Shown here piece by piece: positions 44,481 through 50,168 of a stretch of DNA of 64,000 nt (its first letter is position 1; each line of letters opens with the position of its first letter). The stretch spans positions 434,001 to 498,000 of the forward strand of contig NZ_ATWF01000002.1 of assembly GCF_000421105.1 (NCBI RefSeq), given 5' to 3'. The position numbers were made by a program, and so were the translations under genes. Under the pieces are notes generated by a model, which saw only the letters and a list, made by a program, of their open reading frames with translations, ran no database searches and was not told where the DNA came from. The stretch comes from Limisalsivibrio acetivorans (GTDB taxonomy: Bacteria > Chrysiogenota > Deferribacteres > Deferribacterales > Geovibrionaceae).

Positions 44481-45391
44481 ACAGGCGTGGAAGCGTACTC
44501 GTATTCGTGCTTATATTCATATCCTTCGCCGTGAGTGTTGTTCTCTTCATGCATGAGCGAAGTGGTGAATCACTCGCCGAAACGGCATCTCTACAGGAGG
44601 AATACCAGACCTCCATCTTCGCCATGACGGCCGTAGAGGCTATTCGAGAGCTACTTGAAGATGACGGCAACAACTACGACGATGCCGGCGAGGACTGGGG
44701 ACTGCTCCCCATGATACCCATACCCGGCGGGTACGTCTCCATCTCCATAAAACCCCTTAACGGAAGGCTCAACCTGAACATGCTTGATGAAGAACAGGAT
44801 GAAGAGGGTGAACGAATTCTGGCTGGATGTGTCCATATACTAGAGGAACTGGATATCAATGCTGATACCTGCGCCATGATAAAAGACTGGCTCGACACCG
44901 ACAGCGAGATGACAGCAGGCGGCGAGGAAAGTTTTCGCTATGATGCTGAAGGTAAAGAATATTTAACCAAGAACGGAGCACTTGAAACGCTCCACGAATT
45001 AAGGTATATCAATAGAGCGGGCGAGCATTACGGCGAGCTTGCACAGTATTTCACAATCGGCGGCGACAGCAAAGTGAACCTGAACTTTGTGAGCGAGGAG
45101 GTCCTCGCAGGCGCCGTCCCCGCACTGGAGCCCTATGCGGGTGATATTATCAAGTACAGGGAACAGCACGTTTACAAGGATGTTTCGAACATACGTGAAG
45201 CGGCTGAAATCCCCGATGATATCTACAACGACAACCTGAAATATCTATCAGTAAAAAGTTCTTTATTTTACGTAAAGACTGAAGTAACCTTGGGTGAAAA
45301 CAGCCGCTTCTACCACGTTTTATTACAAAGGAACGGCAAAAAAACTAAACTTTTAAAGTATATTGAAGGTACAGATGCCCCCTTCTTCTGA
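44477..45391 (+). CDS. gspK: Minor pseudopilin GspK
   Basis: A 304-aa GspK, the pseudopilus tip. It begins NRRGSVLVFVLIFISFAV, a prepilin-like segment lacking Glu at +5, as is normal for GspK. The insertion domain typical of GspK (about 60-270) contains RINLNMLDEEQ-like Asp/Glu-rich stretches (GRLNLNMLDEEQDE) and VNLNFVSEEVLAG. The start is GTG at 44477. It overlaps gspL by 17 bases. Confidence 0.9.
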   Translation: MNRRGSVLVFVLIFISFAVSVVLFMHERSGESLAETASLQEEYQTSIFAMTAVEAIRELLEDDGNNYDDAGEDWGLLPMIPIPGGYVSISIKPLNGRLNLNMLDEEQDEEGERILAGCVHILEELDINADTCAMIKDWLDTDSEMTAGGEESFRYDAEGKEYLTKNGALETLHELRYINRAGEHYGELAQYFTIGGDSKVNLNFVSEEVLAGAVPALEPYAGDIIKYREQHVYKDVSNIREAAEIPDDIYNDNLKYLSVKSSLFYVKTEVTLGENSRFYHVLLQRNGKKTKLLKYIEGTDAPFF

Positions 45392-46385
45392 AAACAGAAC
45401 GCTTCTTAAAGACAACAAACTGCTCCGTATCGAAGGAGGTTCTGCGGACTTCCCTGCTGATACGGATGAACTCTCCAGCGGATATACTCTGTTCGTGGAT
45501 GATTCATACTTCTTCTGGCTCTCCATGGAGTTGCCCCAGGCGGGAAAGAAGAAGACCGATGCCTTTGTGAGGAACTATCTCTCAACATTCTTTCCTGAGA
45601 ATATGCTCACATCCTACGGCTATGTCCAGCGTGACGGAAAGGCGTATATTTACGTACTCGCCCCCGCACTGGTTGATCTCATCGAAACAAACCCACAGAT
45701 ATTCAGGAAGGCGGGGAGCGTTACCACGCCGATGCTTGAGCTCATCGCAAAAAACAGCGATTTCCGTTACCATGACGGCAACAGGGTATACAGCATCTCC
45801 GACAGTCTCATAACCCAGCAGCCGGAAAATCCCGACGAAATGGATACACCCCTCACCTTCGAGGATGGAATCCGCATAGAAGTTACGGCATTCAACATGA
45901 AGCTTCCCGGCGTGGGGCGTGAAAAGCTGGCCATCGAAAAATATAAAGTTCCGGCCGCTGTTCTTCTCATTGCCTATGTACTCTTCGCCACCGGCGAATA
46001 CTTCTATGCAAAGGCCGCACAGAACGATCTTGAGGCTTATGAAAAAAGACTAAACAAGATATATATCGATACCGGCGTTGCAACGAAAGCTGACCCCTAT
46101 GGCTCCCTGCTCTTTCATGCAAAGGGTGGTGGTGACACAAGTGGGGGTATCGATGTTCTTGACACCCTTGAGCTTATAAGCGATTCCGCAACAAAAGGGA
46201 AGGTGGGACTTGAGTCCCTTGTCATAAAAGAGAATTCCGTTACATGCACAGGTAAGGCTGTGGACTTCCAGTCCGTTGAGGGTTTTAAAACGAACCTCGA
46301 AACCAACGGCGGTGTTACCGCCTCTGTGGACGATACGGACAAGATAGAGGACGGCATTAAATTCGTTGTGAGGTTTGACCAATGA
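45375..46385 (+). CDS. gspL: Type II secretion protein GspL
   Basis: A 336-aa GspL. The cytoplasmic actin-like domain (about 1-190) binds GspE; a membrane segment (AAVLLIAYVLFATGEYFY, about 197-214) leads into a ferredoxin-like periplasmic domain (about 215-336). I prefer ATG 45375 (GAAGGT 4 bases before) over a TTG at 45363. The order K-L-M-N and the topology carry the call, since GspL is poorly conserved. Confidence 0.8.
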   Translation: MPPSSENRTLLKDNKLLRIEGGSADFPADTDELSSGYTLFVDDSYFFWLSMELPQAGKKKTDAFVRNYLSTFFPENMLTSYGYVQRDGKAYIYVLAPALVDLIETNPQIFRKAGSVTTPMLELIAKNSDFRYHDGNRVYSISDSLITQQPENPDEMDTPLTFEDGIRIEVTAFNMKLPGVGREKLAIEKYKVPAAVLLIAYVLFATGEYFYAKAAQNDLEAYEKRLNKIYIDTGVATKADPYGSLLFHAKGGGDTSGGIDVLDTLELISDSATKGKVGLESLVIKENSVTCTGKAVDFQSVEGFKTNLETNGGVTASVDDTDKIEDGIKFVVRFDQ

Positions 46386-46849
46386 GCTCGAATGTAAAGG
46401 AAACCGTACTCATCTGGGTCGTGATCGTCACAGCTGTCTTCCTCCTGTTTTACTGGACGCACCTCTTCTTCCAGTCACAAAAGGAAGGCTACATCGCCAG
46501 CACAGCAGCCGTTGCAGAGAGAACCGAGAAGGCCGCAGAGCTTGCTGCATTAGTCGAAACAGGAAACGGCAGCAGAAACGTCCAAAGCGGTCTGCTCTCC
46601 TTCGTTCAGGCCGTGAGCTCCCGTGTGGGCATAAACTCAAAGATATTCGACCTCAAACCGATAAGCTCACCCCAAGGAAGAGAGACTGTAAGCATCAAGA
46701 TGCAGGCTCTTAACTACTCCGAGCTGGTCTCATTTCTGGAGAGGCTTGACGGGTACGACAATACGGGTATACGATCCTTCTCCATGAACAAACGTTTCGA
46801 CAACCCCCAGCTTGTAGATATAAATCTGGAGATCACCAAATCAAGATGA
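46382..46849 (+). CDS. gspM: Type II secretion protein GspM
   Basis: A 155-aa bitopic protein. A membrane helix (about 9-30, LIWVVIVTAVFLLFYWTHLFF) is followed by a coiled segment and a ferredoxin-like periplasmic domain containing LNYSELVSFLERLD, common to GspM. It pairs with GspL in the platform. Four-base overlaps tie it to gspL and gspN. Confidence 0.8.
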   Translation: MSSNVKETVLIWVVIVTAVFLLFYWTHLFFQSQKEGYIASTAAVAERTEKAAELAALVETGNGSRNVQSGLLSFVQAVSSRVGINSKIFDLKPISSPQGRETVSIKMQALNYSELVSFLERLDGYDNTGIRSFSMNKRFDNPQLVDINLEITKSR

Positions 46850-47556
46850 TCAAGAAATCTGCCATCGCTATCGCCATATTTCTGCTGAGTGTACTTGTAT
46901 TTACCCCCATGTTCTTCCCATGGAACACCGTGGCGGAGTATTATATCCGCAAGGCTGTGAGTGATAACCGCATACCTGCAAGGATAGATAGTATCAAGGC
47001 AGGCCCGGGCGGAGCAGTAATAAGCGGCATCAGCATTGAAGATATCGAAATAACACAGATAAGGGCGGACTACTCTCTCCTTTCCGTAATAACCAAGAGT
47101 GCGGATGTATCCGTAAATTCCCCCCTCGGCACAATCGAGACATCCATCGACTCAGGTAGTGTTGAGGCCAGAGGACTGCTGGACATGAAAAACATCGGCT
47201 CACTTTTGAACCAGAGTCTTGATGGTGATATGGCAGTTCAGCTGAACATGAACCTCAATGAGCAGACAGGGGATATCGTCCTCACATCCGACTCCTTCAC
47301 CGTTCCCACAGACTTCGGCCCCATGCCGCTCAAAAACCTTCGTGGAGAGGGAACGATCAATAAGAATACTATCGACGTCACAAGCCTAACCTCCGAAGGG
47401 AATGCAAAGCTCGACATAACTGGCAAAATAACAATAAACACCAGAGACATCGGTCGCTCTATGATGAATATGAGCGGGACAGTAGACGTAATGGGAGCAA
47501 AGCAGAACATCACAGCCAGAGGCCTGGTTCGTAATCCAAGGATTACAGCCAGATAA
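46846..47556 (+). CDS. gspN: Type II secretion protein GspN
   Basis: A 236-aa protein with one N-terminal membrane segment (AIAIAIFLLSVLVFTPMFF) and a beta-rich periplasmic part built of short strands, as in GspN. Recognisable elements are RLDSIKAGPGG-like (ARIDSIKAGPGGAVISGI) and NLRGEGTINKN. GspN is not universal in T2SS. It is the last gene of the operon; no gspO prepilin peptidase follows. Confidence 0.75.
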   Translation: MIKKSAIAIAIFLLSVLVFTPMFFPWNTVAEYYIRKAVSDNRIPARIDSIKAGPGGAVISGISIEDIEITQIRADYSLLSVITKSADVSVNSPLGTIETSIDSGSVEARGLLDMKNIGSLLNQSLDGDMAVQLNMNLNEQTGDIVLTSDSFTVPTDFGPMPLKNLRGEGTINKNTIDVTSLTSEGNAKLDITGKITINTRDIGRSMMNMSGTVDVMGAKQNITARGLVRNPRITAR

Positions 47557-47914: not shown

Positions 47915-48769
47915 TTACTCCCCACCCATTATTTCCTCAAAGAAGTAGAACACTCCCCACCTGTTCTCACGCCTCATCATGATATGCCTGCTCCCCACAT
48001 TCACCTTTTCGGCATACTTGTAAAGCTTATCACCATCCTCGTTGAGTACATATCGATCTTTATACTCTAAGGGTGTGCAGTTGTCCGGAAAACTGTCAAC
48101 CTCGGTGAGTTTTTCATTATGAAAAAGAGACGTGCGGCCATCCGGCTCGCTCATGTGGAGCCCCTTCTCTGTTTCACAGAAACGCTTATCAAAACCACCC
48201 ATGCGGATACCTTTGATAAATACAGGCTCTCGCCCTACAGCTGTAATTGTTCCGTTGTCCATGAAGACATCGAACCCATCTGTCCTGACTACACCCTCTA
48301 TCTCTAGGGGACATTCACCGTCAGATATAATCCATTCGCCTGAACAGCAGGCATCAGTACCGCTGTTTTCGACAGCGCATTCATCGGGCTTTCCAACTTC
48401 GGACGTCTTAATTACAGGCTCCTTGCCGGCTAGTGATGGGATATAGTTAACCGACACAAAGGTGTTTCCATCGAATCCAGTAATCCTGCCGTTATGCGCA
48501 TTAATACGGCTCAGGTTCCTTTTCATATTATGAACGTATATAAATCTTTTTTCTATTATGCTGAAGACGACCAAGTGTCCGGAAGCTATAAGAACAGCGT
48601 TGGTTCCATGGAGATGGGCGAAATTAACAGGATAGCGCAGAGCGCCTTTGATAACCTCTTCTTCGGTGCCCAGGTGGTGTACTGCGAAGTTTTCTTTATT
48701 GAATGTAAGTATATATGGAGGTGCTACACTATAGGGAGGAGTTTTTTTTTCTGGTATATCTCTGCGCAC
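47915..48769 (-). pseudogene. C-terminal part of a split lipoprotein-like gene
   Basis: A 284-aa frame that I do not recognise; it consists of repeated short strand-turn units (GHLVVFSIIEKRFIYVHN, NGRITGFDGNTFVSVNY, NGTITAVGREPVFIKGI) suggestive of a beta-propeller-like fold. Its only start is a GTG at 48769 with no spaced ribosome binding site, and it overlaps the 193-aa frame by 46 bases across the A9 run at 48742-48750. A -1 shift at that run joins the two frames into one protein of about 460 aa. It could be a phase-variable gene, a frameshifted pseudogene or a sequencing error. Confidence 0.6.
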
Positions 48770-49305
48770 GCCTCGGCATCATATACGGCAAAACCCTCTT
48801 TCCCCTTTGTCTGGAGGAGGTTTCCTGCTACTGTGAGGCTGGAATATCCATCCTCAGTAAGCATGGAGGGGCAGTTGTCCGATGAGAGGAAGAGCCTGTC
48901 ACCTTTGAGGAAAGCGAAAAGGCCGTTACTGTAGCCGAAGTCCTCTGCTTCGTTCGCAATAAGAGCCTCTGCGGGTTTCTTCTCGTACATAACCACGGAG
49001 TTAAGGATGATATCGTTCTCGGGGAACTGTGACACGAACTCTGCGGGATCGGCCGATGCAGAGATTTTTTCGGATAATTTTGATCTTAAATCGGCAGATT
49101 CGAGGGGAGTGGTTCCGAAGGAACTTGTCTGAACGTTTGCAGTGGTACAGGAGATAACAAGAATAAAAACCGGAATGACCAGTTTAAAGATTCGTAGAAA
49201 CCAGCTTGGCCTGCATAGAGATGGAAACACCTCTGTGCACAGAGCATTGCGCTCGTCCATAGTCAATTCTGCGTCGATTTGATTCACCGTTCTTCCCCCG
49301 GACAT
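48724..49305 (-). CDS. N-terminal part of a split lipoprotein-like gene
   Basis: A 193-aa frame starting with an ATG that overlaps the murB stop (TAATG). Around residues 35-53 is a hydrophobic run ending in a lipobox (FKLVIPVFILVIS-C), so the protein is probably an outer-membrane or inner-membrane lipoprotein; the real start may be nearer the signal peptide. After it, strand-turn units (GLFAFLKGDRLFLSSDN) resemble those of the frame at 47915. It ends right after the run of nine A residues (YQKKKLLPIV). Function is unknown. Confidence 0.6.
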   Translation of the reverse strand: MSGGRTVNQIDAELTMDERNALCTEVFPSLCRPSWFLRIFKLVIPVFILVISCTTANVQTSSFGTTPLESADLRSKLSEKISASADPAEFVSQFPENDIILNSVVMYEKKPAEALIANEAEDFGYSNGLFAFLKGDRLFLSSDNCPSMLTEDGYSSLTVAGNLLQTKGKEGFAVYDAEACAEIYQKKKLLPIV

Positions 49306-50168
49306 TATTCGAAGCCGAGGTATTTCACCTCCTCTTCGAGTTCATAGCCCGTTTCTTTTTTTACAGTTTCCTTAACAAAAAGTATCAGCGAACGTATATC
49401 GTCCGCCGAAGCATCTCCGGTATTCACAATGAAGTTTGCATGCTTAGGGGAAACCATTGCACCGCCGTGGGTTTTTCCCTTCAGCCCGCATTTCTCGATT
49501 AAAGCACCGGCGTAGCTGCCTTCCGGCCTTTTGAAGACCGACCCGCATGAGCGAAACTCAAGGGGCTGTTTTTCTGCGCGTCTGTTAAGAATATCTTTTC
49601 TCTTGGCCATCAGTGCTGTCCCGTCACCTTCTGCCAAGTTAAATTCAGCACTCGTTACAATGCTACCGGAGATATTCGCTGCTTTGCGGTATGCGAACCC
49701 TGCTTCGGATGAGTTGATCGAATAGCTCTCACCCTCCAGATTAACGAGATCGATTCTCGTTACAATGTCTTTGATCTCCGTTCCGAATGCTCCCGCATTC
49801 ATCCCGATCGCCCCGCCGACACTTCCAGGGATCCCGCTGAGCGACTCTGCACCGCTCATGTAAGATCTTATAGTATATAAGATCATTGAGTCAAGCAAAA
49901 CTCCCGCTCCAACGAAAATTTTCTCATGTTTTTTGAAAATAAGCCGATTCAAGTTCCGTAGTGTGAGAACAAGGCCGGAAAAACCTTGATCAGAAATAAG
50001 GACGTTGCTCCCGTATCCTATTATTGCCAATGGTATAGAATGATCGTTTACGAAGTGTAGACAGCTCTTAAGTTGATCAGTAGTTGACGGTGCACAGAAG
50101 TACCTCGACTCACCCCCAACACCATAGGAACAGTACTTTTTTAGACTAACACCCTCTTGAATGTTCAT
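49305..50168 (-). CDS. murB: UDP-N-acetylenolpyruvoylglucosamine reductase
   Basis: A 287-aa flavoenzyme that reduces UDP-GlcNAc-enolpyruvate to UDP-MurNAc for peptidoglycan. FAD-binding IGYGSNVLISD, LSGIPGSVGGAIGMNAGAFG, and the C-terminal FRSCGSVFKRPEGSYAGALIE, holding the catalytic Ser, are clear, as is KHANFIVN. It is of the shorter MurB type. The ATG at 50168 has no good Shine-Dalgarno sequence. Its stop overlaps the lipoprotein start. Confidence 0.95.
   Translation of the reverse strand: MNIQEGVSLKKYCSYGVGGESRYFCAPSTTDQLKSCLHFVNDHSIPLAIIGYGSNVLISDQGFSGLVLTLRNLNRLIFKKHEKIFVGAGVLLDSMILYTIRSYMSGAESLSGIPGSVGGAIGMNAGAFGTEIKDIVTRIDLVNLEGESYSINSSEAGFAYRKAANISGSIVTSAEFNLAEGDGTALMAKRKDILNRRAEKQPLEFRSCGSVFKRPEGSYAGALIEKCGLKGKTHGGAMVSPKHANFIVNTGDASADDIRSLILFVKETVKKETGYELEEEVKYLGFE

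Follow-up and report, generated by a model that had tools for sequence, protein, structure and literature searches.

When a gene is found split at a poly-A run, the split is usually put down to an error, a pseudogene, or a phase switch. In Blochmannia, ancient homopolymer frameshifts that are conserved between species, with purifying selection acting downstream of them, were reportedly described by Wernegreen et al. in 2010. The tssM1 gene of Citrobacter rodentium and the tssM3 gene of Yersinia pseudotuberculosis are cellular, non-mobile envelope genes with a poly-A run (A11 and A9, respectively), an early stop, and both a long and a short form; slippage on the A9–A11 runs of tssM genes has been measured at 15–25% (PMC4256274). 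In Thermus thermophilus dnaX, slippage on an A9 likewise leads to long and short products (PMC1088944, PMC3711429), and GeneTack assigned two-ORF dnaX genes with 10 A residues to transcriptional realignment (PMC3711429).

Here, we examine a lipoprotein gene of the Geovibrionaceae whose reading frame breaks at a run of nine A residues. The aligned sequences place the frame change at or very near this A9 and mark the joined product as the conserved, selected form. With moderate confidence, we consider that both frames belong to a single gene, which encodes a beta-propeller-like lipoprotein and is expressed by recoding through RNA-polymerase slippage at the run.

The A9 run and its two frames

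The window is the whole stretch of DNA that was analyzed, 64 kb in length, and belongs to a genome of 2.97 Mb in three contigs with about 50% GC. It contains one homopolymer of at least nine residues, which is also its longest: an A9 on the coding (minus) strand, that is, T9 on the plus strand (Table 1). A reading made from the sequence only had claimed that frames of 193 and 284 aa overlap at this run and that a -1 shift joins them into about 460 aa. The run is present as claimed, the coordinates and frames were verified, and either a -1 shift or a count of 10 A in the mRNA joins the frames into a product that computes to about 462–463 aa.

Table 1. Positions in the window of the lipoprotein gene, its run, and the preceding gene
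Feature	Position	Strand	Remarks
murB	49305..50168	-	Directly upstream of the lipoprotein gene; Pfam MurB_C, FAD_binding_4
Upstream frame, truncated lipoprotein (short form), 193 aa	48724..49305	-	Stop TAG 48724-48726
Hydrophobic segment and lipobox (FKLVIPVFILVISC)	49147..49188	-	Predicted acylated Cys codon 49147-49149; read by eye
A9 slippery run	48742..48750	-	Phase CAG AAA AAA AAA CTC; frame change site
Downstream frame (-1), 284 aa	47915..48769	-	C-terminal portion of beta-propeller-like domain, without signal sequence

The upstream ORF starts at an ATG that overlaps the murB stop (TAATG), reads across the tract in frame 0, and ends five codons past the A9. The second frame lies at -1, and the two overlap by about 45 nt with the run inside the overlap; both are intact, with no further lesion across 462 codons. 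The only early start of the downstream frame is a GTG at 48769, 28 nt before the tract end, and the next start lies 167 nt past the A9. Elsewhere in the window (45363–47556), convergent neighbors resemble type II secretion genes, of which only the T2SS M protein matches Pfam, below the cut-off.

Conservation and selection in the family

Our sample comprised 12 Geovibrionaceae genomes from four genera, here called g1 (the window genus, represented only by the window genome), g2 (the sister genus, three genomes), g3 (five), and g4 (three). The family has four named genera, of which, by elimination, Geovibrio probably corresponds to g2, Seleniivibrio to g3, and Limisalsivibrio to g1. The order of murB and the lipoprotein gene is common to all four. 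In every genome of g3 and g4 the gene is a single intact ORF of 464–503 aa without a homopolymer longer than 7, so the unsplit homologues, to which the sequence-only reading had pointed as a comparison, are one continuous protein in two other genera rather than the two separate proteins that it had named as a refutation.

In g2, the gene is split in all three genomes at GAT-A9-CAT, around codon 105; in the window, the split falls around codon 186. The four split genomes of g1 and g2 share a run of exactly A9 and the same direction of shift (-1), but the run occupies either of two sites, separated by about 80 codons. The -1 frame of g2 opens within the run, and frame 0 meets a stop 9 nt past it, which confines the shift to the run itself or the three codons that follow. 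At both junctions, the read-through sequences align unbroken to the intact homologues. The three g2 species, in which synonymous sites are near saturation, share the 19 nt of TTTGAT-A9-CATC without a single difference. The conservation of AAA codons in g2 is only modest evidence, since 3 of the 13 other invariant Lys residues are also encoded by AAA in all three, and for this reason we lay the weight on frame and recurrence. A MurB tree groups g1 and g2 against g3 and g4 (100/99), which, the tree being midpoint-rooted, is to be read as a split of an unrooted tree. From these sequences, the frame break would have arisen either once, the site moving afterwards, or twice in the same gene.

Among g2 genomes, dN/dS is 0.08–0.10 upstream of the run and 0.07–0.08 downstream (pairs with a computable dS only). 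The first 70 codons past the run, a stretch without a conserved start, give about 0.08; as a control, the other two frames of the same DNA have apparent ratios of 2–4 and contain stops. Because dN/dS is low both before and after the tract, these 70 codons among the latter, the fusion protein is itself under selection. At the level of sequence comparison, this shows selection acting on the joined protein and speaks against both a pseudogene and a free-standing downstream protein.

The latter would apply if the locus encoded two separate proteins, the second made by re-initiation or coupling. The GTG just upstream of the window tract would suit such an arrangement, as would a genuine coupled overlap at ATG-A9 elsewhere in g2 (L090/L127), but conservation of the start is lacking: two g2 species (genomes G007 and G004) have their first start 209 nt past the tract, with the codons before it under selection, and G001 has a GTG at +50. 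Moreover, the second piece lacks a signal sequence but retains Cys residues that are invariant in the family, the intact homologues are a single protein, and both junctions fall inside a beta-rich domain. We therefore regard two proteins as extremely unlikely, and the earlier claim that the downstream frame is unlikely to be translated alone is in line with the unconserved start and the selected codons that precede it in g2.

An assembly error or a recent pseudogene in the window genome must also be weighed, as g1 is represented by one genome. The same gene is, however, split at A9 in three independent g2 assemblies, one of them a single contig, which removes the assembly error that the sequence-only reading had foreseen as a refutation. 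The other coding-region A10 tracts examined in the window genome, those of dnaX and of a CheW-like gene (L079), stay in frame, strong purifying selection acts on the g2 copies, and the window frames are otherwise free of lesions. Error or decay is in our judgment very improbable.

To place the split in its genomic setting, poly-A tracts were located by pattern search of genomes. The window genome has 23 tracts of at least nine (18 A9 and 5 A10), most of them intergenic or terminator-like, and only the lipoprotein A9 splits a gene in the middle of its coding region. The same was found in g2, where 30 of 30 A9 tracts were examined in G004 and 29 of 32 in G007. It is most unlikely that chance or sequencing error would make the same gene the sole split gene in both genera. 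Several other tracts that might have split a gene were set aside: at L062 and at L090/L127, neighboring genes overlap, the second gene of L090/L127 starting at ATG-A9, and at L081, L074, and L103 (T-sense) the frames appear to be due to chance or to lie antisense. As a separate observation, L079 (window genome, contig C2, 318563-318572) encodes a CheW-like chemotaxis protein with long acidic repeats, and its A10 lies in frame in the middle of the gene.

Candidate mechanisms of the frame change

In the reading that we prefer, RNA polymerase would stutter on the A9, such that a fraction of the mRNAs would carry 10 A residues (or 7 or 13). Slipped mRNAs would give the full lipoprotein of about 463 aa as a minority product, and unslipped mRNAs would give a truncated lipoprotein of about 190 aa, ending just past the run, as the main product. 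Since A9 has been kept although A10 would be in frame, a mixture made up mostly of the short form would seem, as with tssM1 of C. rodentium, to be favored or at least tolerated. Genes expressed by slippage are marked by a homopolymer of about nine at the frame transition, here A9 in four genomes, and by a conserved transition with purifying selection on both sides, here seen in three g2 species, with g1 adding a single genome and another site.

One observation stands against polymerase slippage, namely the uniform -1 direction, which by the GeneTack rule points to the ribosome (PMC3711429). Programmed -1 ribosomal frameshifting, in which tRNAs would pair anew on A_AAA_AAA inside the A9, taking some of the ribosomes into the -1 frame on a faithful mRNA, ranks second among the readings, at a low probability. 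The heptamer is in frame in all four genomes, in agreement with the X_XXY_YYZ pattern, and a shift of -1 in every genome is what ribosomal sites are expected to show (PMC3711429). Seven A residues would nevertheless be enough, and nine have been kept; neither a conserved downstream structure nor a clear SD-like stimulator was found in the window or in g2. RNA folding gave nothing significant at the window site (z 0.79 and 0.07), and the g2 signals are weak and not alike. In E. coli, heptamers that lack a stimulator shift at a rate of about 0.3% (PMC4066793). We prefer transcriptional slippage because nine residues are kept where seven suffice for the ribosome, because no clear stimulator was found, because that rate compares poorly with the one measured for tssM, and because of dnaX.

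The dnaX gene of the window genome (L132/L069, contig C1, 2116747-2118381; identified by Pfam) has an A10 at codon 487, and the shifted frames end within about five codons. An A10 at that codon is present in 11 of the 12 family genomes (relatives' loci L133-L143), and the two remaining frames meet stops close by. In G009, the run is A9 and the frame is broken, and the long (tau) form would need realignment. This layout is shared with the transcriptional-slippage site of Thermus dnaX (PMC1088944, PMC3711429). By analogy, it suggests, although it does not prove, that the RNA polymerase of Geovibrionaceae slips productively on such runs.

The sequence-only reading had offered phase variation or programmed slippage, and the two halves of that proposal have fared differently. 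Slippage is well supported by the A9 split in four of four genomes in one direction and by purifying selection on the read-through product, and phase variation is weakened by the invariance of A9 in three g2 species. Under phase variation, replication slippage would toggle the run between A9 (off) and A10 (on) in a population, and a homopolymer in a lipoprotein gene is the classic form of such a switch. An alternating on state would also be compatible with low dN/dS, a measure that, taken by itself, would not separate slippage from phase variation. A contingency switch should, however, show mixed lengths, and the run is exactly A9 in each of the three g2 species, although their synonymous sites are close to saturation. 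Phase variation would also require every one of the four genomes to have been caught in the same off state, and the dnaX runs of the family are length-stable. We rank phase variation third and consider it unlikely.

Returning to polymerase slippage, we put forward as a tentative extension that the lipoprotein may be held at a fixed short-to-long ratio by slippage, and that this control may have been kept while its site moved by about 80 codons between sister genera. What selection would then maintain is the presence of an out-of-frame A9 within the N-terminal part, whatever its exact place.

Predicted fold and comparison with known systems

The lipobox, LVISC, occurs only in the upstream ORF; judged by eye, the hydrophobic segment ends at its Cys, as in a lipoprotein, and this Cys is invariant in an alignment of 11 intact homologues (C72 of homologue L009). 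The n-region before the hydrophobic segment (window 49147-49305) is unusually long, at about 40–50 aa, and is conserved in Geovibrionaceae; order-level relatives are without it. For the lipoprotein, there was no Pfam family above the cut-off and no PDB sequence match, and weak matches below the cut-off were disregarded.

For the intact Denitrovibrio homologue, AlphaFold2 gives an all-beta model (mean pLDDT 74), and the downstream window piece alone is also modeled as all-beta (mean pLDDT 76). The junctions map to residue 128 (g2) and residue 206 (g1) of the homologue model, both inside the beta-rich domain, and each piece would thus lack part of that domain. With the intact-homologue model, Foldseek placed eight-bladed propellers and several BamB structures among the best matches (E about 1e-10), at a TM of about 0.3-0.45 and a high rmsd. 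Given these low TM values and the high rmsd, we claim only a lipid-anchored, propeller-like lipoprotein, as a predicted resemblance of fold and with no finer function. BamB, the beta-propeller lipoprotein of the outer-membrane assembly complex, resembles the modeled homologue in the Foldseek matches and in its lipid anchor; it differs in the weak superposition just given, in an identity of about 10%, in that other propellers match equally well, and in the lack of a sequence-family match, TIGR03300 (BamB/YfgL) having no match in any of the 12 Geovibrionaceae genomes.

The Geovibrionaceae would allow productive slippage by the polymerase to be tested cleanly in a cellular gene that is not mobile, with the gene intact in two genera and slippery in two, at two sites, and with dnaX as an internal comparison. 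If both forms are needed, control of the short-to-long ratio of the tssM type would reach a propeller-like lipoprotein, and the family would also illustrate how recoding can persist in a gene although its site has changed position.

Blochmannia are AT-rich endosymbionts, whereas here a genome of balanced composition has few tracts and one split gene, and the sites in the two genera differ. Thermus dnaX shares the A9 and the two products, and the family's own dnaX has the same layout with A10; in Thermus, however, the long form is the one encoded in the genome and slippage shortens it (PMC1088944, PMC3711429), whereas the lipoprotein gene encodes the short form and slippage would extend it. The genome likewise encodes the short form of tssM1 (PMC4256274), and the lipoprotein gene is, like tssM, a cellular, non-mobile envelope gene with a poly-A run and an early stop. 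The tssM genes belong to another protein family, their transcriptional frameshifting is experimental where ours is inferred, and the parts of PMC4256274 consulted do not report relocation of the site. The class of mechanism is already known, and the gene and its relocated site appear to be new: this is a recurrent, selected frame transition at A9, and probably a new member of the slippage-expressed genes, in which the relocation of the site is unusual.
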